Shown one piece after another: positions 1 through 10,276 of a stretch of 64,000 nt of DNA. The translations under genes and the position numbers were made by a program. Within the stretch, counting starts at the first letter, position 1. Every line of letters starts with the position of its first letter. Below the pieces are notes generated by a model. That model did no database searches, had not been told where the DNA came from, and was given only the letters and a program-made list of their open reading frames with translations. This DNA is from Nostoc sp. 106C (lineage in GTDB: Bacteria; Cyanobacteriota; Cyanobacteriia; Cyanobacteriales; Nostocaceae): NCBI RefSeq assembly GCF_002154725.1, contig NZ_MTAW01000180.1:62001-126000 (forward strand), written 5' to 3'.

Positions 1-3000
1 TATTTGAGCCACCTGTTATTTTTACAGAGCGTATCAAAGAATTGAAAGATAACTCTGAGCTAAATCGAGAGCAAGCCCAATTATTACTTGAGGTGGAACT
101 TGGCTTTGCCTTGATGGAGTGTTTAGGAATTGATGATGAACCAGTCACAGCAGTTTGGGCAATACTCAGTGGTATGCCTTTGCGACATCCACGTTTACAA
201 AACTTAGATGAAAGCCAGAGGCGTGCAGTTGCTAACGCTCGGCAAATTATCCCATTTTCTGCACGTTTCGCCTGGTTGAACGCATTACGTTTTTATATCC
301 GCAATATTTCGCAAAACTGGCGTAATTATGATTTTAATATCCAGGATTTAGATTCTCAGATTATTCATGCGGCGAAAGGTCTGCGCCATCAAGTCCACCA
401 AAATTTATATGAAAGCTGTCTGAGTGACGATTTGGAGTTTCGCCAACGCAGGGCTGAACCAGTACAGGCTGGAGTTCCCTACCAATTCCAGGCTAAGACG
501 GAAAAAGAAACTGTCACGATGCAAGTACAGTTCACACCAGAACATTTAAGTCCTGCACGACAACAGCCTTGGTTTCCCACTCCACGCGATCGCAATCCTT
601 TTTCAGTGCGAATTTCAGATTTAGAGTCAGATGCAGAGTTCCTCGATCGCCGCGAACAGTCACTAGCACGCCGATATGGTTGGCATGAAACACAAAAGGG
701 ACATTGGGTAAGCCGCTTTCGCAAAATCAACTTTCACAAAATTCAGGAAGACGGTACGGTAAGCGATCGCAATACAGAACCACTAGATTTGGATGGTTTT
801 GTACATATTGCAGGACAGGTGGCTTCTGGAAAGTCTACCCTGTCAACGTTGCAGGCCGTTAATGTTGTGCGACATCATCCCGATCGCCGTATCACCTTGG
901 TTGTCAGTGATGTACAATCAGCAATTCGGTTAGCAAATCAAATTAATTGGTGGTTCTGTGACGATCCCGAAAACGATGAGCCAGTTGCAGTACCGTTATT
1001 AGGACGCACTAAACGAGACGCGCACCTGAAAAGCTTCTATGCCTCGAAAGACTTTCAGGAACACTGGCAACGCGGACAACCACACTGGGGCGATCGCTTT
1101 TTGGGAACGGCTTGTGCTTTGCAAGGACTGCTACAAGCCAGCGACATCTTCGACCGTTTGCATGGCAAGCCACTCATACCTGGAACTGAGCCATGTCACT
1201 CTTTGAAAAAAGCACCAGAAAGCGAAAGCCAGCGTAAAAAACAAAACAATAACCCTGGCGTACCCCACTTGTGTCCGTTTTTTGCTACTTGCCCATCACA
1301 GCAAGTCTATCGTGATATGCCAAATGCCCGTGTTTGGATTACAACTCCAGGTGCAATGGCAATGGCTGGTTTACCGCGTCATCTAGAATTGCGTCCGATC
1401 AAAATAGGGGAACTCGTTTATCTACATTCCGATATTGTTGTGTTTGATGAAGTAGACACAGTGATTAAGTGGTTTGACGACGTATATGCTGAGGAAGTTT
1501 TACTGACAAATGGTGGTGTTTTTGATGATATTGGGGTACAAACTGAAGATTACATGAGATTCAACCGTGTCACCCCACCATTGATGCAGCGATGGACAAC
1601 CGCAGAACGTCATGTACAAAGTGTCGTTACAGCAACTTTAACCCTATTAGATAAGCATTTAGGTCACGAGTTTTTACGTAAATGGATAGAACGTGGCTAT
1701 TTTACACCTAATTCTCTCCTGTATAAATTTTCCCGTCGCCTAGCTGGACTTGAAGAGTTAGATTCTCCTGATGTCACTGAGCAAGAAATTAAGGCTAATA
1801 ATCGACGTGTACAGCAGATAATGCGAAATTTTGACGCATTACTTGATGATGACCCATTGCTTGGGCAACCTCGACCAAATTCTAAAGTTCAAAGACTAGC
1901 CCTTTTGATTCAACAGATTAATAGTATTGGCGAAAGTGCCACTGATGATAGTATTTATCGTGCTTGCAAAGCGTGGATAGTTGATTTTTTCCCCAAAACA
2001 GGAAAAAGGTTAGCAAGATTGCGAGAAGAACTAGAAAAACGCCAAAACAATTCACAGCAGACAGCCAAGAAAAAACGGCGGAAGTCCTCAAAACAGGAGG
2101 AAGAATTAGATCCGGTAGACACCCTAGAAACTCTAGCTTATCGTTTACAGTTTGCCCTGACAATCACTCTTTTAGATCGGCACACACGCATTGTTTTTTA
2201 TGAATGGCATCATCGACCACCCACTTTAGATGACGAGCCTCCACATCGTCGGATGCCAACAGCAATGTTAAATATTTTACCCTTACCGCCAACAGGAAGG
2301 CAGTTTGGTACTTATTATTCCCGCAAGGATGACGATCGCAACCAATCTGAGAACAGTAGCGAAAATGCTTTATCTATATTTGCCTATACCAATATTGGTC
2401 GTTACTATGTTTTGAACTTTCATCGCTTGCTGACAGACTTGGATGGTCAACGCGGCCCCAACGTCTTGGCATTATCAGGAACATCTTATCTAAGAGATTC
2501 CACTAAGTTTCATGTGGGTAATCCCCAGGGTATTTTAATGCCAGAGGCGAGTGCCACAGAAGCGATCGCCCAAAGTCGCTTCAAGTTTCTGCCTCAATCT
2601 AACCACAAAGATGAATCTATTCGTATTTCTGGGACACCTGAACGCCAGAAAATGGGAATGTTTAAAGAGATGGCACAAGCGCTAATTGGCAACAACGGCA
2701 GCGGTAATTTAGGGCAGGAGCTTGAGGAATTGAAACGGCTTGGGCAGAGCGATCCAGATTCTTGGCAGGATAGGGAACGCCTACTGTTACTCGTCAACTC
2801 CTACGAGCAGGCACGATGGGTAGCAGAGGAAATCCGTCAATCTTGGTGGGGTATGCGGGAGCAAGTCTACCATTTGCAGCGCGATCGCACAGAAAGTTTG
2901 ACTGAGGATGACATCAACTATCTCTCAAGGATGGAAGTTGGTGCGCTTAACCGTGCCGATATTGAGACTTTCGCACTGACTGGCGGTAAAATCCTAGCTG

Positions 3001-3596
3001 CACCGATAAGTGCGATGGGACGCGGATTCAACATTTTGAATGCCAATGGTAAAGCGGCTTTTGGTGCTGTTTACTTTCTCACCCGACCCTATCCTCATCC
3101 CCATGATACTCAAGTGATCGCTCAAGAAATTAACCGTCGTGCTTTGGATTGGGTAGAAGATGCGAATTTCCTTGCTTGGGAAAAAGACGGAATTTTAGGG
3201 CGTGCGGAAGCTGTGCGCCAATTGGCTGCACGTTACTGGCGATCGGTAGAACATCGTTCTTACTACAAGACACTGTATAAAAATGAAGAATTACGCGCCT
3301 TTCCCCGCCAAGATTTAGCCGCAACTACGGCTGGCGTAATCGTTCAAGCTGTAGGTCGTCTTTTGCGTGGAGGTGTTCCTTTTCACGCTTACTTTGTTGA
3401 TGCTGCTTGGGGGCCAAACTATGCCAAAGAGCAACAGCTTGATACACCACGTACCAGTCTACTAGCCGCAATCATTGATCTGCTTTCTGAATATGTTTAT
3501 GAAGATGTTATCAGTAAAGCTTTATACCAATCAATAGCAGATGCTTTGGTTGATATCGATGGCTTCAACTGGGAAATAGACTCAAGAGATAGATAA
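1..3596 (+). CDS. DinG/XPD-like superfamily 2 helicase of a pPIWI-RE island (5' end outside window)
   Basis: Probable ATP-dependent DNA or R-loop helicase that works with the pPIWI-RE protein encoded 5 nt downstream. The frame is open to base 3, so the TTG at 42 is not convincing as a start and the gene runs off the left edge. Counting residues from nt 42: Walker A GQVASGKST at 258-266, Walker B DEVD at 469-472, and a motif-VI-like QAVGRLLRGG at 1102-1111. Cysteines C358, C385, C411 and C417 lie between motifs I and II, where XPD/DinG helicases bind a 4Fe-4S cluster. The N-terminal 240 residues before Walker A would correspond to the extra domain of helicases in pPIWI-RE three-gene islands. 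That assignment comes from recall of the family, not from a search. A REase partner, usual in such islands, would lie upstream, outside the window. Confidence 0.8.
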   Translation, partial: FEPPVIFTERIKELKDNSELNREQAQLLLEVELGFALMECLGIDDEPVTAVWAILSGMPLRHPRLQNLDESQRRAVANARQIIPFSARFAWLNALRFYIRNISQNWRNYDFNIQDLDSQIIHAAKGLRHQVHQNLYESCLSDDLEFRQRRAEPVQAGVPYQFQAKTEKETVTMQVQFTPEHLSPARQQPWFPTPRDRNPFSVRISDLESDAEFLDRREQSLARRYGWHETQKGHWVSRFRKINFHKIQEDGTVSDRNTEPLDLDGFVHIAGQVASGKSTLSTLQAVNVVRHHPDRRITLVVSDVQSAIRLANQINWWFCDDPENDEPVAVPLLGRTKRDAHLKSFYASKDFQEHWQRGQPHWGDRFLGTACALQGLLQASDIFDRLHGKPLIPGTEPCHSLKKAPESESQRKKQNNNPGVPHLCPFFATCPSQQVYRDMPNARVWITTPGAMAMAGLPRHLELRPIKIGELVYLHSDIVVFDEVDTVIKWFDDVYAEEVLLTNGGVFDDIGVQTEDYMRFNRVTPPLMQRWTTAERHVQSVVTATLTLLDKHLGHEFLRKWIERGYFTPNSLLYKFSRRLAGLEELDSPDVTEQEIKANNRRVQQIMRNFDALLDDDPLLGQPRPNSKVQRLALLIQQINSIGESATDDSIYRACKAWIVDFFPKTGKRLARLREELEKRQNNSQQTAKKKRRKSSKQEEELDPVDTLETLAYRLQFALTITLLDRHTRIVFYEWHHRPPTLDDEPPHRRMPTAMLNILPLPPTGRQFGTYYSRKDDDRNQSENSSENALSIFAYTNIGRYYVLNFHRLLTDLDGQRGPNVLALSGTSYLRDSTKFHVGNPQGILMPEASATEAIAQSRFKFLPQSNHKDESIRISGTPERQKMGMFKEMAQALIGNNGSGNLGQELEELKRLGQSDPDSWQDRERLLLLVNSYEQARWVAEEIRQSWWGMREQVYHLQRDRTESLTEDDINYLSRMEVGALNRADIETFALTGGKILAAPISAMGRGFNILNANGKAAFGAVYFLTRPYPHPHDTQVIAQEINRRALDWVEDANFLAWEKDGILGRAEAVRQLAARYWRSVEHRSYYKTLYKNEELRAFPRQDLAATTAGVIVQAVGRLLRGGVPFHAYFVDAAWGPNYAKEQQLDTPRTSLLAAIIDLLSEYVYEDVISKALYQSIADALVDIDGFNWEIDSRDR

Positions 3597-3601
3597 AGAC
3601 T

Positions 3602-6568
3602 ATGACGAGCAGAAATAAACCAACAAATATTTTGCTACCTGCACGCATGAGTTTGGTAACAGATGCCTTTGCCAAGCTAGAGATTGCTGTGTTGTCATTT
3701 CCTTTTGTTCAGGTGGTAGCAGACTTTCGCCGTGATATGGAACGAGTACTGTCTCGTGGTAATAAAAAAATAGAGGTTCCGCCACCATATCGACAATTAA
3801 ATAATGCTTTACTTGCCTGTGCATCTACACTGACATACGGCTTTGAGTATGTTGGTTATGACCAGGAAAGTAACTCTTCTTTATATCAGGCGTTAGCTGT
3901 AGGAACCCCTAAGAACCCATTGAAAACTCCTACACCCCAGCAGATACATGAATTAGTAAGAATTTGGGCACAGGAGTGGACGAAGAAATATCGTGAAAAA
4001 GGTAAATCGGATGAAGTGAATAGCGTGTGCGATCGCTTTCTTGAAAGAATGGCTATCATACCACCTGATTGGGATTGGCAACGGATTAAACCAGAAACAC
4101 TTGTGCGCGATATCAACGCAGAGAGAGGATTAGGATTTCAAGCTATTCCTAGCCTTTTAGCAACTATGTTGCATGGTAAAAAGTGCATTATTAACTCTAG
4201 AAAAAGACAACAGGAAATTCAATGGCGCAAAGTACAAGGAGGCGGTTCGGGTAAGGTTGGACTGTACTTAGTTAGTAAGCCGTTTAAGGCGAATTACACA
4301 GATAATGACAAGGAAAGAGAAGGTTATTTTGCTTACCGTCTAGACTTTAATGTTGAAACCCAAGCAGCAAGATTCAATGATAATGGCAATCTAGAACCGT
4401 GGATTTTCTTACATTTGAGTTGCCAAAGATACCCTCATGAGCCGTTGTCAGATGGCAATTATGGGCGTGACATCTCTGTTTTGATGGGTATGAATAAGGC
4501 ACGTTTATCTGATTATGAGGTGGATTCAACGTTAGTGCGTCTTGTTATTGAGAACAATGGCAAAGAAGAAGAAAATTTATGGAGGTTACAACTACCGGAA
4601 CTACTTGCTGCATTCAAAGCACGCGCTCTAGAACAGCCAGACAATATTCTGAATAATCCCGCAGGATTTGGTAATTTAGATAACTCAAATAACTGGGGTG
4701 ACAGGGACGAATATTATATAGTTCATGCTGAAGGATATAAGTACGAGCATGAGAAATCTAAACGAGGACACAGTATAAAAACTGGCTTTAGTTTTTTGGA
4801 ACGGGGCGATATTATTGCACGGGTATTAGAACTACTCAACGGAGTTTTAATACCAGATAATCCAATGCAATCTGATATTCCTGCGCCATCTGGGATAACA
4901 GCACCACTAGCAATGCGGGATTATGAATTTATTTCTAAATCTCGCAAAAAACGCCAACCTTACCAGCAAATTGCTACTGATGCTATTTACCGAGCATTGC
5001 AGGGTAAAGCAATGCATATTTTTCTGATTTATCGAGAACAAGACACTTGTGAAGTAGTTTACCAGCAATTACGCGATGTATTTCTTCTGAATGAAAATGA
5101 AGATTTTCCACAAGATATAACAGTTTCAAAAATTTTGATTGATGATGCAACCCTTTTGCAGCCACTGAATACAGGTGGATTTTTGCCTAAAGATCGTCGC
5201 AAATTCGATGAGCAAATACGCAAGCAGCATCAAGCAAAGCGAGAAGCATGGCGAACTTTTCTCCAACAAAATGCTATTCCTCTGATAAATTTTGAGACTA
5301 ATCCCCACTGTTTAGCAATTATTGAAATTAGACGCATCAAAACAAAGGGAGTTCTTCCCCAACAAAATATCAAAGGAGCTATTCGTGAAGCTTGTATCAG
5401 AGAGGGAATTAGCTCCCAAATGATACAGTCGATACCGTCGATACCGACAGGTAAACCAAAATCAAGTAACACAGAAGATGATGAGGATAAATCACCAGCT
5501 TACAGCAAAGCCACAAAAGGACGGGTAATGAGTGCTGTACTGGATGGAACATTACGTCAAATTGGGGCGCTATACGGACTACCTGCTCAACTCTATGAAC
5601 AAGCAAATATACCGAAAGAAATTGCCCAAGAATTAGATGTAATTGCCTTTTGCCGTCGCAAAACTAACCAATATCAAGGTGATATTCATTATGTGCTTGC
5701 AGTGCGTTTACGTGCAACGGGTGCGGTAGATGTAATGCTTCCTGATGGTAATGATTGGATTCCTTACTCACAGGCGGGGATCACTGTGGGAAAGATTTTT
5801 GCTGAAGCACGCCGCGATCGCCTAGAAAATACAAAACGCATTCAAAGTAAAATCAAGTTGAGCGGTACAGAATTAGTACAGTTTGCTGCGCGGGTAGTAA
5901 CTAAACATTTAGACAGGCCAAGCGTTGTTTTAATTGAAGCTGAAGGTTGGCGTAACGAACGTGGTGAAGATAATGATGGTACAGTTTGGTTTCAGTTGAA
6001 AAATGAGTACCTGCTGGCGAAACGCAACGTTCTTGACTTTCGCCATGTTTCTGGTCACATTTGCGAGTACAGCCGTGAGAATAACCAACTAGAGAACTTG
6101 CTAGCAGTAATTCGGATTCGCACTGGTAAAGAAACACCACAGTACATCACCAATCGAGAAACTTGGAACAAAGATTGTCCAGCACGAGATTTCAAACATC
6201 TGAGCGGTTTTTACGATAAGTCTGTGCCAGAATTACTGCATTACTTCTCTGTGGGAAAACTACCAAAAACACAGAAGAAGCAAGATGAAATGCCAATACC
6301 CGAACTTTACAAACTCGGTTATCAAGAGGATCAATTCGGTGCTAACTTTCCATTCAAACATCAACAGCTGGTGGAAATTGTACCGTTCTTTGTACGCCCA
6401 GATTTGCAACAAGAAGAAGCTTTAAAAGCACTATGTCGCGTTCCTCACTATTTAAGATGCTCACCTGCTTGGTCTATGGGAAATATCGTTTTGCCATACC
6501 CAATGCACTTAGGTCAGGAAGTCATAGAGGATCACCTATGCATACTTGGTGTAAATTTGCAAATTTAA
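3602..6568 (+). CDS. pPIWI-RE family protein (prokaryotic PIWI relative)
   Basis: 988 residues matching the layout of pPIWI-RE proteins: an N-terminal module to about residue 430, a MID-like region about 440-620, and an RNase H-like PIWI domain about 640-985. Recognisable C-terminal signatures are LIEAEGWRN (about 777-785), RIRTGKETPQY (about 838), HLSGFYDKSVPELLHYFSVG (about 868-887) and the terminal EDHLCILG. The family is predicted to bind nucleic-acid guides or RNA-DNA hybrids and to act in defence against invading DNA; this is a family prediction, not shown here. It starts 5 nt after the helicase stop, so the two genes are almost certainly co-transcribed. No frame break was seen. The alternative of an unrelated large unknown protein is unlikely given the helicase partner. 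Confidence 0.82.
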   Translation: MTSRNKPTNILLPARMSLVTDAFAKLEIAVLSFPFVQVVADFRRDMERVLSRGNKKIEVPPPYRQLNNALLACASTLTYGFEYVGYDQESNSSLYQALAVGTPKNPLKTPTPQQIHELVRIWAQEWTKKYREKGKSDEVNSVCDRFLERMAIIPPDWDWQRIKPETLVRDINAERGLGFQAIPSLLATMLHGKKCIINSRKRQQEIQWRKVQGGGSGKVGLYLVSKPFKANYTDNDKEREGYFAYRLDFNVETQAARFNDNGNLEPWIFLHLSCQRYPHEPLSDGNYGRDISVLMGMNKARLSDYEVDSTLVRLVIENNGKEEENLWRLQLPELLAAFKARALEQPDNILNNPAGFGNLDNSNNWGDRDEYYIVHAEGYKYEHEKSKRGHSIKTGFSFLERGDIIARVLELLNGVLIPDNPMQSDIPAPSGITAPLAMRDYEFISKSRKKRQPYQQIATDAIYRALQGKAMHIFLIYREQDTCEVVYQQLRDVFLLNENEDFPQDITVSKILIDDATLLQPLNTGGFLPKDRRKFDEQIRKQHQAKREAWRTFLQQNAIPLINFETNPHCLAIIEIRRIKTKGVLPQQNIKGAIREACIREGISSQMIQSIPSIPTGKPKSSNTEDDEDKSPAYSKATKGRVMSAVLDGTLRQIGALYGLPAQLYEQANIPKEIAQELDVIAFCRRKTNQYQGDIHYVLAVRLRATGAVDVMLPDGNDWIPYSQAGITVGKIFAEARRDRLENTKRIQSKIKLSGTELVQFAARVVTKHLDRPSVVLIEAEGWRNERGEDNDGTVWFQLKNEYLLAKRNVLDFRHVSGHICEYSRENNQLENLLAVIRIRTGKETPQYITNRETWNKDCPARDFKHLSGFYDKSVPELLHYFSVGKLPKTQKKQDEMPIPELYKLGYQEDQFGANFPFKHQQLVEIVPFFVRPDLQQEEALKALCRVPHYLRCSPAWSMGNIVLPYPMHLGQEVIEDHLCILGVNLQI

Positions 6569-6797: not shown

Positions 6798-7214
6798 CTA
6801 GTTAAGTCTGGCTTGTTTTGAAATGCGTTTATTTAGTTCAACTTCTTCCTTTATTTGTTCGGCTTCTTGTTGACATTCCTCTGCTAGTTCTTCGATATCG
6901 TCGGCTATTGAAACAATCTCTTGGGCTAACTTTTTAGTTTGTGCTGATTTTTGCTCGTATATTTCCAAAGCTTCTGTAATCTCAGAGAAAAGTTCTTGGT
7001 ATTCTTCAGGTGGATTTTCTAACCACTGCTCATACTCGCTTTGGGATTTTTGAATAATAGCAAGAGTTTCCTGCCAAGAAGTTTTTAGACGCATATCTAG
7101 CGTCTGAACTTCCTTATACTTAGCCTTGAGTTGTTTGGTAGTATTTACCTTAGCTAACTCGTAGACTTTAGCCTTTAGCTCTTGAAGTTTCATATTTAGG
7201 ATTGAGCATCTCAA
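6798..7214 (-). CDS. small coiled-coil protein of the defence-type cluster
   Basis: 138 residues, strongly charged and Glu/Lys/Gln-rich, predicted almost entirely helical with long heptad-like stretches (about residues 8-60 and 70-135). No catalytic motif, membrane segment or signal peptide is visible. It is the last gene of a minus-strand row and starts only 12 nt after the stop of the larger coiled-coil gene, which suggests co-transcription. It converges on the pPIWI-RE gene with a 229-bp gap. The ATG at 7192 (inside the called frame, giving MKLQELKAK) is an alternative start. Function is not recognised; a structural or adaptor role is only a guess. Confidence 0.65.
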   Translation of the reverse strand: MRCSILNMKLQELKAKVYELAKVNTTKQLKAKYKEVQTLDMRLKTSWQETLAIIQKSQSEYEQWLENPPEEYQELFSEITEALEIYEQKSAQTKKLAQEIVSIADDIEELAEECQQEAEQIKEEVELNKRISKQARLN

Positions 7215-7226
7215 ATTTAGAACATT

Positions 7227-7925
7227 TTATCGCTCTAGCTGGTTTAATTTTTGATAAAGCCTTTCATTCTCCTGACGAAGACGCTGACTCTCTAAAACTA
7301 ACATAGCAATTTGCTGTTTCTGCTGTTGAGTTAAAGCGATTGCTTCGTCCCTTTGCTGCTTGTATCTTTTCGTATGAGCCACTCTTCCACCTAAACTCTG
7401 ATTATTCTTAGCTAACTCCTGTCTTCGCTTCTCAACAGCATGATATTTCTTTTGTAAATTCTCTAGTTCTGTACGTAATTCCGCCTCTGCTTTACTATTC
7501 TCAGCTTCAGATCGGAAGGCTTCATTTTCAGCTTCTAGGGAAGCAATTCTTGCTTCTAACCTCTTAATTTCTTTGTCCTTACCAAAGAGTTTCTCTCGTA
7601 AAGCATTAACTAGAGCAAGAAGCTTAAATTTTTGTTGATCTTGTTCATGACAAGCTACTTCCAGTTCATGTGCGCGATCGCGCAGACGACCAGCCCGATT
7701 CTGTAAAACTTTGGCTGTACACTCGTACTTAATGATAGCAATAACCCTGCTACGTTCTGGTTCGCCCAATCTTTGAACTTCAAGACTGCGCCAGAGTTCG
7801 TCGTAGTTGGTACATTCATGACGTAGCTTTTGGGTTGGGACGTGTTGAGTATCTGCAATTAACTCATAGTTTTTCAGATGGACTCGGTCATGCCAATAAT
7901 CAAACAATGCTTTGCTGTCGTCCAT
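7227..7925 (-). CDS. coiled-coil protein with a short N-terminal globular part
   Basis: 232 residues. The first 75 look globular (DYWHDRVHLKNYELI; NYDELWRSLEVQRLGEPERSR). From about residue 80 to the end it is a continuous charged coiled coil rich in Lys/Glu/Gln/Arg. No signal peptide, membrane span or enzyme motif is seen. It precedes the small coiled-coil gene by 12 nt and follows the HEPN-like gene after a 267-bp gap, so it may have its own promoter. Structural coiled-coil proteins of this kind are often partners in multi-protein defence complexes, but I do not recognise the family. Confidence 0.7.
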   Translation of the reverse strand: MDDSKALFDYWHDRVHLKNYELIADTQHVPTQKLRHECTNYDELWRSLEVQRLGEPERSRVIAIIKYECTAKVLQNRAGRLRDRAHELEVACHEQDQQKFKLLALVNALREKLFGKDKEIKRLEARIASLEAENEAFRSEAENSKAEAELRTELENLQKKYHAVEKRRQELAKNNQSLGGRVAHTKRYKQQRDEAIALTQQQKQQIAMLVLESQRLRQENERLYQKLNQLER

Positions 7926-8130
7926 TGTGCGATCGCTTCTGAAAGTATTTCTTCTTAAAAGATAGAGTACCTAAAAGCCCACTTAGAGCCGTATTTACTC
8001 TGAAAATAATTAAAAAATCTTCACTATGTCCTGTTATCTGCTATCTTTGCCATGATTTAGAGCAGTCGTTTGATAGATTAGGACATAGTTGAATTATACA
8101 GCCCTTATCGCAACTAGTGTTTTAGCCTGT

Positions 8131-8155
8131 TCCCTGTCACACACTATAACAGGGA
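8131..8155. other. short inverted repeat between cluster genes
   Basis: TCCCTGT (8131-8137) and ACAGGGA (8149-8155) form a 7-bp stem around an 11-nt loop in the 267-bp gap between the HEPN-like and coiled-coil genes. There is no T-run on either side, so it is not a classical terminator. It could be a processing hairpin or a protein-binding site, or chance. Confidence 0.25.
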
Positions 8156-8192
8156 TTCCCTCAATGGGTTTCCTGCAATTTAATTGAGAATT

Positions 8193-8972
8193 CTATTTTT
8201 GGGGAGTGTACTTAGGTAATACTTGCTCAAGAATTCTTTTTTGACCATTGGGGGTGAGGGCGACTTCATCCTCCGCAATAGGACGAATATCCTTATTTTT
8301 AATTAGCCTAAATATAGCAACACTAACGTTTTGAGGATTCTGTCCGACAGCCTGTTCACGTAGTTCGGCACGACTCAAGCGATTATTGTCAGCATGATAC
8401 AGAAGCAACAAAACTTCATCCGTTGCCGAAATATCTCTTGCTAGAACTAGAGGTTTTCCATCTAATTCATGAATTATTGAATGTTCTAATTGAACAATTT
8501 GGGCAATGGTTTCTGCAACAACTTTTCGATCCTGATTCCAAACTAGACGAAGAAACTCGGCAAATATCCATTTGCTGGCATGAAGCACCAGCATCGAATC
8601 CATATAGTTAGCGGTGTACTCGGTTGATATATGAACAGCACCGCGATCTGAACGGAAGCCATATACAACCTCAATTACTTTAGCCAGATGATAACGATCC
8701 TTTGAGCCAAGTCTATGAGGAATGCTTTGATCTAGTAAATTTTTACGAATTTCACCAGGCAACTTGCGATGATCGATCTTTCCAGCATCCATTTGCAGCA
8801 AACAACGCGAAACCGCTTCACAAAACCGCCCACCGTCTAATTCTGTTGGTTGCCAGTCGCCAGCTAGAAATCGTTGCTGCATTTCGACATAGCATTCAAC
8901 CACTGCATGGGCAAAGTGAGAGTCAACAATTTTTGAAAGTTCCTGAATTAATTGCTCAGATGTCCTCCTCAT
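8193..8972 (-). CDS. HEPN-like protein with C-terminal winged helix
   Basis: 259 residues, unrecognised at family level. The N-terminal 165 residues are all-helical and contain GFRSDRGAVH at 106-114. R107 and H114 are spaced R-x6-H, as in the R-x4-6-H active site of HEPN ribonucleases, and a long helix follows, also as in HEPN folds. Residues about 185-255 read as a winged helix (LSRAELREQAVG, VSVAIFRLIK, ALTPNGQKRI). The start codon overlaps the stop of the upstream zinc-ribbon gene (ATGA at 8969-8972), which indicates translational coupling. The suggested role is an RNA-targeting effector in the defence-type cluster. The HEPN call rests on one motif and predicted helicity and could be wrong. 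Confidence 0.6.
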   Translation of the reverse strand: MRRTSEQLIQELSKIVDSHFAHAVVECYVEMQQRFLAGDWQPTELDGGRFCEAVSRCLLQMDAGKIDHRKLPGEIRKNLLDQSIPHRLGSKDRYHLAKVIEVVYGFRSDRGAVHISTEYTANYMDSMLVLHASKWIFAEFLRLVWNQDRKVVAETIAQIVQLEHSIIHELDGKPLVLARDISATDEVLLLLYHADNNRLSRAELREQAVGQNPQNVSVAIFRLIKNKDIRPIAEDEVALTPNGQKRILEQVLPKYTPQK

Positions 8973-10276
8973 GGTGACACCTCTCCAGAATTTTCAGAAG
9001 ATTCATCAATAGATGCGTTGTTTTGTTTGGAGTTTATTAATCTTTCGACTTCAGCCAAGCCAGGAGGCAGTATTTGGAAACCACCTTGCACTTTAATTAA
9101 ACTTCCTTGTCCTGAAGCAGCTTGTAAGCGCCGTTCTAAGTTACTCTCATCTACCTTGATACCAAGTCCAAAATATAAGAACTGCTTGAGCTTGTTGCTT
9201 GAAACCACTATCTCAGAGTCGCTTGTTGCTTTACCAATTGCCCACAGACCAAACAAGCCCTTCTCCATACCCGTACAATCTTTAATAAGTGCATGAAAAT
9301 CAATATTCGACGTTAGTGGTTTCCAGTTAGCGACCCAAGACTCAACTTCCTTGGACAATTCATTATTCTTACGCTTGCCATTCTTTGTGGAATTTTCTGA
9401 ATCCTCATCTGCTTTGTTATTTGACTTGGAACTGCGTGAGGCTGCACCTGATGTTAAATCCCATTTGCCTTCTATCGTTCGATCAAGCACCTCAGCGAGA
9501 ACTTTTCGTGCTTGCTCTTGTCCTGACAGCCGCAACCCAACCATATCTCTCTCAACAATCAAGTCAGCACTTTTTCCAATCCATGTAGCGGTATTGTTGT
9601 CATACAATCCAACTCTTTTGAGAATGTCATTTAATTCAGTACGAGGAATTTCCTCTCGCCTATCGACATCTAATGAATACAGGAGAACCAAAAATGTTAG
9701 CCTCCGTGCAGCATCTATCTTGTTTGCAGCTTTGAGCCGCGTTTCCATTAGCTGTAGTTGTTCGCCGTTATATCGAAAAATCTGTCTTAACTGGTTAGCA
9801 TCAACTCCATGAGCAGCAGGAAGTTGGGCAACTGTATTAACCGTTGCTTCATTGTTCTCGGTAGTAGCTTCGTAGTTGAATAAGGAAAGTTGTTGCGGTT
9901 CGGCATTACTTAGATCCCGAATCACAGGACGATTACTAGGCGGTTTTCCTGGTGTCATTTGTCCACCAACGATCGCTGCGATCGCCGCACCACCCCAGCT
10001 AATACCCACTTCGTTACTTAGAGAAGCCTGAATCTCTCGTGAGTAGCCTTTGTTGGTTTCAATGAATTTTAAGGTGTTCATTACACCAGATAAACCACCA
10101 TTGCTTGATGCCGATCCGTTATGCCCTTGACCTATTGGGGTTCCGCACATTACACATCCTTTTGCACCAGGAAGCAGTGTTTCATTACAGTTTTTACACC
10201 GAATTTGCTGAGGACAGTTCGAGCAATAGAACCCAATGGTGGGTAAGGGATGTTGGCAGGAGGGACAAGTCTGCAT
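8969..10276 (-). CDS. double-zinc-ribbon protein with two helical/winged-helix-like regions
   Basis: 435 residues. Residues 1-50 carry four CxxC pairs (CPSC, CSNC, CKNC, CVMC), a double zinc ribbon likely to bind two Zn and contact nucleic acid or protein. After a low-complexity linker come two winged-helix-like regions: about 180-260 (AARRLTFLVLLYSL to VGLRLSGQEQARKV) and about 335-425 (GLWAIGKATSDSEIVVSSNK to FQILPPGLAEVERL). A Ser/Lys/Asn-rich stretch lies between them. It is the first gene of the minus-strand row, is coupled by a 4-nt ATGA overlap to the HEPN-like gene, and is divergent from the WYL regulator 191 bp away. Function is not recognised; it could be the sensor or nucleic-acid-binding component of the cluster. 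Confidence 0.7.
   Translation of the reverse strand: MQTCPSCQHPLPTIGFYCSNCPQQIRCKNCNETLLPGAKGCVMCGTPIGQGHNGSASSNGGLSGVMNTLKFIETNKGYSREIQASLSNEVGISWGGAAIAAIVGGQMTPGKPPSNRPVIRDLSNAEPQQLSLFNYEATTENNEATVNTVAQLPAAHGVDANQLRQIFRYNGEQLQLMETRLKAANKIDAARRLTFLVLLYSLDVDRREEIPRTELNDILKRVGLYDNNTATWIGKSADLIVERDMVGLRLSGQEQARKVLAEVLDRTIEGKWDLTSGAASRSSKSNNKADEDSENSTKNGKRKNNELSKEVESWVANWKPLTSNIDFHALIKDCTGMEKGLFGLWAIGKATSDSEIVVSSNKLKQFLYFGLGIKVDESNLERRLQAASGQGSLIKVQGGFQILPPGLAEVERLINSKQNNASIDESSENSGEVSP

Follow-up and report, generated by a model that had tools for sequence, protein, structure and literature searches.

The window analysed here, 64,000 nucleotides (nt) of Nostoc sp. 106C (G000:C9:62001-126000, contig NZ_MTAW01000180.1, of an 8.66 Mb genome), opens inside the helicase gene of a pPIWI-RE island, and the locus is a complete three-gene island of this known kind. 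Upstream of it, and divergent, stand genes for a helix-turn-helix (HTH) protein of the XRE family, a predicted repressor, and for an M78 (ImmA/IrrE-type) metallopeptidase. Comparison of related loci indicates that this pair is linked to the island across changing flanks and is not a mere neighbour. We consider it probable that the five genes, three effectors and two controllers, form one module of Nostocales cyanobacteria, in which a guide- or hybrid-directed restriction island would be silenced by the XRE repressor until M78 destroys it on DNA damage. Genomes, contigs and loci are given G, C and L numbers, and statements about cited papers refer to the portions of them that were available.

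The first-pass annotation of the window had recognized a DinG/XPD-like helicase and a pPIWI-RE protein, adjacent in the same direction with a 5-nt gap, and both assignments were borne out by profile matches and open reading frame (ORF) coordinates. The helicase frame is open from the first bases of the window to position 3596 (1197 amino acids (aa) inside the window), and the pPIWI-RE ORF begins on the same strand 5 nt after the helicase end. The helicase matched pPIWI_RE_Z (PF18155) in Pfam with an E-value of 8.8e-32, above the curated cut-off, and PprDinG in PADLOC with 1.9e-124. The 988-aa protein matched RNaseH_pPIWI_RE (1.8e-22), pPIWI_RE_X (2.7e-14) and MID_pPIWI_RE (2.2e-07) in Pfam, each above its curated cut-off, and PprPIWI in PADLOC (1.1e-48). 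The domains that the annotation had proposed to look for, Z in the helicase and RNase H, MID and X in its neighbour, were thus all found, and because both proteins match these profiles, neither a missing pPIWI-RE hit nor a helicase of unrelated family, which would have spoken against it, was encountered. The protein belongs to a divergent clade: its PF13032 score was 84.5 bits in the genome search, versus approximately 146-209 for complete proteins of the pPIWI-RE group that is largest among the others.

The same annotation had called the island truncated and had expected its third usual gene, for a restriction endonuclease (REase), upstream. The gene was present there: a 383-aa REase, matching pPIWI_RE_REase (PF18154, 1.1e-30) and pPIWI_RE_Y (PF18156, 1.9e-07), is encoded left of base 1 and ends 4 nt before the helicase start. 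Truncation in the genome was rejected, since the REase gene lies directly upstream in the contig; it is the window alone that is cut, and 16 nt of the helicase gene fall to the left of its first base. In all three proteins, their domains, the order REase-helicase-PIWI and the tight spacing (4 and 5 nt), the locus is like the pPIWI-RE three-gene island (PMC3702460; PADLOC PprRE/PprDinG/PprPIWI) that Burroughs, Iyer and Aravind proposed in 2013, together with guide- or hybrid-directed restriction.

The XRE and M78 genes are divergent from the REase gene across a 139-nt gap; as in CapH/CapP, an HTH + M78 gene pair heads a conflict operon. The M78 protein carries an HExxH motif (HEFGH), and residues H99, E100, H103, E127 and E129 were invariant in 10/10 aligned rows. 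In the XRE protein, L89 R90 A91 and L95 D96 P97 A98 were invariant in 14/14 rows. An AlphaFold2 (AF2) model of it gave a mean predicted local distance difference test score (pLDDT) of 73, with a confident HTH and a block pLDDT of 52-69 for the helices spanning 81-90 and 97-117; the invariant LRA...LDPA stretch joins these two modestly predicted C-terminal helices, and we would guess that it is the cleavage loop. One PDB search with M78 returned a single cyanoglobin, which at E 0.5 we regard as a chance match, and another returned nothing. With the single XRE sequence, no PDB relative was found up to E 0.01. Up to E 1, the XRE profile picked up 16 chains, of HTH type or other kinds and the best at 1.7e-4, and it reached DdrO chains at E 0.035-0.038 over the HTH only.

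The occurrence of the pair was assessed at 34 loci of the PIWI clade, namely those with at least 440 PIWI residues in one frame and with upstream sequence on the same contig. Genes were scored as intact when one ORF reached at least 340 (REase), 1050 (helicase), 940 (PIWI), 110 (XRE) or 160 aa (M78). We excluded loci interrupted by a contig end (L041, L050, L057, L077, L085, L086, L087, L109 and L113), loci that duplicate a previously counted genome, and remnants, the last comprising G136 (a 61-aa M78 fragment approximately 3 kb from a PIWI piece), G056 (scattered pieces) and G602, G637, G760, G771 and G779 (PIWI pieces in frames of at most 101 aa). Among the contig-cut genomes, G079 and G122 have REase-XRE-M78 on another contig, and in G141 another contig has M78 together with a fragment of the REase gene. 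An M78 gene of at least 160 aa was found in 34/34 loci, and XRE and M78 were both at threshold length in 31/34. The operon was intact in 17/34 loci, and the pair was at threshold length in all 17 of these versus 14 of the 17 with a broken operon, a difference that is not significant by itself; the three loci without an intact XRE all have broken operons. The commonest flanking gene family occurred at 7/34 loci, and the arrangement was kept while PIWI identity to the protein in the window dropped to 44%.

A clade-type PIWI was identified in 27 of the 192 genomes of the host's family, a count made over the loci examined (among the other matches, one short piece in G033, of 117 aa and 64 bits, is unassigned, and the remainder were excluded on their scores). 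A clade-type M78 (at least 170 bits) was found in 26 of the 192, all among those 27, and the 27th holds an M78 remnant. The co-occurrence of PIWI and M78 over the 192 genomes (Fisher, 2.8e-31) and the correlation of PIWI distances with those of XRE (r = 0.76) and M78 (r = 0.88; Mantel, 24 loci, 0/2000 permutations as high) are overstated, as are the shuffle figures below, because the loci are related by descent. Clade M78s formed one group relative to four outside rows, with support 99/99. The clade was present in 25/388 genomes of the order, fragments included (a sample that overlaps the family set), and in 4/386 genomes of a phylum sample, all of the same order and one of them our own. It was found in 15 loci of named genomes, belonging to Nostoc, Mojavia, Amazonocrinis, Komarekiella and Trichormus, which we take to be Nostocales cyanobacteria. 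In viral contigs, 82 stretches matched the search pattern and none was a relative of the clade PIWI, and plasmids gave no match to it. A further 55-residue M78 piece with stops was seen in G172.

The divergent gap carries a conserved, operator-like footprint. The host's own gap carries the palindrome GAAACAGTGTTTC (C9:60711-60723), which in its own form GAAACANTGTTTC occurs once in the 8.66 Mb genome. In 29 of 30 distinct gaps (the short gap of L051 was dropped), GAWAC-N3/4-GTWTC, a motif chosen after the gaps had been looked at, was found in 15, as against a mean of 0.04 and a maximum of 2 in 500 shuffles, and half-sites numbered 63 in the gaps versus 13.9 in shuffles. A conserved block, consisting of TTGACA, mostly 17-18 nt, TAnGnT and then ATgAAACgATTGTATC (short form TTGACA ... 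TGTAnGnTTnATgAAACgATTGTATC), could be aligned, unlike the remainder of the gap, across 11 loci that span several families and include three from that of the host. This block looks like a candidate operator over the start of the operon's promoter. The group to which the window itself belongs (8 loci) has a different layout, GTTTC...GAAAC-AGT-GTTTC plus further half-sites. Coordinates are collected in Table 1.

Table 1. Features of the pPIWI-RE locus and of neighbouring genes; plain positions are those of the window, and C9 positions those of the contig.
Feature	Position	Strand	Evidence or remark
DinG/XPD-type helicase, N-terminal Z domain, 1203 aa	1..3596 (C9:61985-65596)	+	Pfam, PADLOC
pPIWI-RE protein, X + MID + RNase H (PIWI) domains, 988 aa	3602..6568	+	PF13111, PF18157, PF13032; PADLOC
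REase, 383 aa	C9:60829-61980, left of window	+	TTG start after AGGAGG; PF18154, PF18156
Divergent gap between XRE and REase, 139 nt	C9:60690-60828, left of window		
Palindrome GAAACAGTGTTTC	C9:60711-60723		in divergent gap
XRE HTH repressor (predicted), 120 aa	C9:60327-60689, left of window	-	HTH_3 2.8e-08
M78 (ImmA/IrrE-type) peptidase, 181 aa	C9:59763-60308, left of window	-	PF06114 6.7e-16
Two coiled-coil proteins, 259-aa protein, 435-aa zinc-ribbon protein	6798-10276	-	259-aa protein without Pfam match
WYL-WCX regulator, 385 aa	10468-11625	+	PADLOC WYL/Csx1 match 7.2e-41

Motif conservation in the REase and helicase was counted over 24 aligned clade rows, with gapped rows left out of each count. 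REase residues D288, D302 and K304 were invariant in 24/24, and by these residues the PD-(D/E)xK site is intact. Cysteines of zinc-ribbon type were invariant in 23/23 (Cys 190, 199 and 202) and 24/24 (Cys 220) rows; the ribbon was recognized solely from these four residues, and the Y and REase domains by profile. The host's helicase has Walker A GQVASGKS at 277, IVVFDEVD at 484 and motif VI QAVGRLLR at 1121, and its Cys 377, 404, 430 and 436, at the iron-sulphur (Fe-S)-type position, were invariant in 23/23 rows. In the PIWI protein, the conserved Arg and Glu that mark the family are represented by R838/R840 and E925, invariant in 12/12 clade rows; as matched by alignment, the arginines correspond to those of 'vRvR' in most other pPIWI-RE groups, and E925 to the Glu of 'lEi' in most, except L059-L063 and L064-L067.

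Relatives of the pair also stand beside conflict operons. The ten full-length M78s that rank next in the 192 family genomes (73-115 bits; L150, L151 and L160-L167) are all divergent from multiubiquitin + ThiF/E1-like operons. Nine of these operons have the composition multiubiquitin + E2 + E1/JAB, and the tenth, in G184, combines multiubiquitin with ThiF; an XRE gene was found between M78 and the multiubiquitin operon in 9/10. These loci suggest that XRE + M78 is a predicted cyanobacterial controller of Bub-type systems. The host's own genome has such a locus (G000:C71, L151:4248-7653), where a Bub-type operon of multiubiquitin, Prok-E2_E and ThiF/JAB genes faces away from a related XRE + M78 pair; the gap between them has a palindrome of its own, TTTCACAAGTGAAA, recognized by eye. 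The PADLOC capP profile matched the C71 pair at 3.7e-06 and the G184 pair at 6.7e-11. Because these Bub-side pairs match capP, the pair linked to pPIWI-RE seems to be a remote branch of the CapH/CapP type, common to Bub and pPIWI-RE operons. The Abditibacteriota plasmid AP024153.1 (L138), one of 16 plasmid records found, has XRE + M78, the M78 being 46% identical to that of the host, in the same divergent arrangement beside an E1-E2-JAB operon with an LmuA-like protein.

CapH + CapP control immune operons of the CBASS, BREX, Pycsar, DISARM and Bub types, and Bub operons are reported to be associated with CapW or CapH + CapP in 219/544 cases (PMC13373217). Like CapH/CapP, the pair described here joins the gene of a small HTH protein to that of an M78 peptidase, next to a conflict operon; unlike it, the pair falls outside the capH and capP profiles and is attached to a PIWI-type island. 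It is also like DdrO + PprI/IrrE of Deinococcus (PMC10904395) in combining an XRE repressor, here predicted, with an HExxH metallopeptidase. That system governs a global regulon, whereas one local operon is apparently concerned here, and the C-terminal GAF-like domain of PprI/IrrE would not fit into the M78 of 181 aa. Single-stranded DNA (ssDNA) activates PprI cleavage in Deinococcus (PMC10904395), and activation of CapP by ssDNA is cited in both PMC10904395 and PMC13373217.

In PMC3702460, HTH domains fused to the REase are described, with stand-alone members rarely fused to a zincin-like peptidase; the divergent XRE + M78 pair found here is unmentioned in the available text. The remark in the first-pass annotation that few such systems have experimental support fits the literature, in which the experimental work found was that on PsPIWI-RE of Pseudomonas stutzeri (PMC10991935). 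PsPIWI-RE performs RNA-guided ssDNA and DNA-guided RNA cleavage with D525/D610 as catalytic residues, and the available text reports no phage or plasmid interference. The protein family is the same, and there too the neighbours of the gene are a DinG helicase gene and one of restriction type; by contrast, D525/D610 are not matched residue for residue here, and the available portion of that paper does not speak of an XRE + M78 pair. A fixed XRE + M78 controller beside pPIWI-RE was undescribed in the literature on the family that was found, subscription papers, preprints and supplements lying outside the search, and the terms PIWI and Argonaute were absent from the immune-operon controller literature checked. 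The three-gene island is of a known kind; the fixed controller is, as far as seen, new.

Some loci of other pPIWI-RE clades have other neighbours. L071, of a second clade, has a pair matching capH at 1.8e-13 and capP at 2.1e-34 in PADLOC. A divergent WYL gene was found in 2/6 inspected plasmid pPIWI-RE islands (of 25 records found). In L153, from a Bradyrhizobium elkanii plasmid, and L156, from a Microvirga plasmid, the pPIWI-RE island has a divergent WYL-domain gene upstream, and its third gene is a very long RNaseH-domain gene (>9 kb). In L067 (G072:C245), a 1718-aa frame matches both a helicase model and RNaseH_pPIWI_RE, an apparent helicase-PIWI fusion. The host itself carries a second three-gene island, of another clade (G000:C49, L055:2779-10367; REase 449 aa, helicase 1175 aa, PIWI 909 aa), with no XRE + M78 pair within 2.7 kb upstream.

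Gene content, order, domains and motifs, the linkage of pair and clade, the operator-like footprint and the relatives beside conflict operons are the observations from which we infer DNA binding, repression, cue, cleavage, guide use and defence itself. At rest, XRE would occupy the gap palindrome and hold promoter activity down. M78 would become active on DNA damage or in the presence of invading ssDNA, the most likely cue being ssDNA, as for PprI/IrrE and CapP. M78 would then cut XRE, perhaps in the LRA...LDPA stretch, and the island would be derepressed, with the REase, helicase and PIWI proteins then made. The pPIWI-RE protein may bind a guide or an RNA-DNA hybrid on the invading DNA, the helicase may open or track the structure, and the REase, directed by PIWI, would cut the hybrid- or guide-marked DNA. 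The control half of this scheme follows the parallels with PprI/DdrO (PMC10904395) and CapH/CapP, and the effector half the 2013 proposal (PMC3702460) and PsPIWI-RE. That the island acts as a guide-dependent or R-loop-targeting defence system remains the prediction of PMC3702460.

Among other explanations, the one that survives best, though we think it unlikely, keeps XRE + M78 as regulators of the island and drops the link to DNA damage: the cue would be a phage protein, redox state, a metal or partner binding, or control would work without proteolysis. The pair shows weak similarity to CapP and solved structures, and the four invariant Fe-S-type cysteines of the helicase could sense redox. 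Against this stand the invariant HExxH and two downstream Glu of M78, and the position of its ten next-best relatives by ubiquitin-like operons, a class associated with CapW or CapH + CapP as often as noted above (PMC13373217).

Somewhat less likely, in our estimate, is that the island aids replication or repair under DNA damage and is no defence system, with XRE + M78 control serving repair. Knockout of piwi-re in P. stutzeri lowered ciprofloxacin survival approximately 15 times and produced filamentation (PMC10991935), and a damage-type controller would fit repair as well. The distribution speaks for the opposite: any pPIWI-RE was found in 71/192 family genomes and the clade in few genomes of the order, half of the 34 operons are decayed, sites change, the REase is stand-alone, and other clades are carried on plasmids. 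By this patchiness, decay, mobility of site, stand-alone REase and plasmid carriage, the island resembles a conflict system.

Equally doubtful is the proposal that the RNase H site of a guide-programmed PIWI nuclease itself cuts, with the REase as an auxiliary. PsPIWI-RE cuts ssDNA with RNA guides through D525/D610 (PMC10991935), and D679 and E779 of the PIWI protein are invariant in the clade, near the expected catalytic places. However, the second position of the catalytic pair is Glu in every clade row, and the D525 column, judged by eye, holds no Asp in any of them, as is likewise the case by eye for all other pPIWI-RE proteins in the same two alignments; the REase site, meanwhile, is invariant. 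A reading of the PIWI protein as likely dead was given up because the invariant D679 is close to the expected place. An AF2 model of the PIWI protein from 12 sequences (mean pLDDT 33.4) was too poor to place the catalytic site and was not used, and a PDB search gave no relative of the protein up to E 10. Since the catalytic pair is not reproduced residue for residue and the model cannot settle the matter, the REase is, on its conserved residues, the only nuclease here with a clearly whole site.

We hold it very improbable that the pair has nothing to do with the island, or is of toxin-antitoxin-like nature and lies upstream by chance: its divergent orientation, its kept length in 14/17 broken-operon loci, its remnants without PIWI in two genomes (G142 and G183) and an HTH-M78 fusion adjoining a weak HigB-like match in L121, a locus of pPIWI-RE group B, would fit, but it occurs nearly one-to-one with the clade across changing flanks, shares a gap with a conserved footprint and has relatives likewise at operon starts, and to our knowledge M78 is not among known toxin folds.

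Several findings weigh against the proposed repressed and protease-released island. The host's M78 reached the PADLOC capP profile at E 0.0057 at best and its XRE had no capH match at E up to 1, and for these reasons the pair is, by its profiles, not canonical CapH/CapP. Nor is XRE + M78 control general among pPIWI-RE islands: apart from the fusion in L121, a separate pair was seen in 0/20 group-B loci by a limited check, and 10/11 loci of other clades had no such pair when the nearest upstream ORFs were inspected with an HExxH search and Pfam for ten proteins, little upstream sequence being present in some, such as L127 and L129. Operons are broken in 17/34 loci. In L053, with an intact operon, the last 27 M78 residues lie 1.3 kb away; in L068, with a broken one, the M78 C-terminal end is altered and residues 2-138 alone match. 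The pair remnants of G142 and G183 stand in genomes where no pPIWI-RE match was found. The strict motif is absent from 14/29 gaps, its choice followed inspection, and in the host's own gap promoter-like pairs were not above shuffle level (2 found, mean 1.2). Shared descent inflates the Mantel, Fisher and shuffle figures, and the sole knockout phenotype found for the family in the available literature is ciprofloxacin sensitivity, not a defence phenotype.

Downstream of the island, the minus-strand genes at 6798-10276 were considered as part of it and rejected, because the 435-aa gene, with matches in 18/192 family genomes, occurs also in genomes where no clade PIWI was found (for example G048, G162 and G180). 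The group is patchy and found apart from the PIWI island, and is possibly a separate mobile or conflict unit. In L036, L037 and L038, too, the island is followed downstream by the two coiled-coil genes.

pPIWI-RE islands have been predicted since 2013 with no known trigger. A repressor-protease pair with a candidate operator would tell when the island switches on, probably when ssDNA appears, and such control would explain how the cell tolerates a stand-alone REase. It would also give a laboratory handle, since removal of the repressor or activation of the protease would permit interference tests. Through this association, a PIWI-type system is connected with controllers of a family otherwise found at bacterial ubiquitin-like operons. 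We put at even chances the broader view that bacterial PIWI-type immunity can be inducible, with a pPIWI-RE island repressed and then armed by an ssDNA-activated protease of that shared controller family, and with different pPIWI-RE clades having recruited different controllers: this XRE + M78 family, CapH/CapP or WYL proteins.

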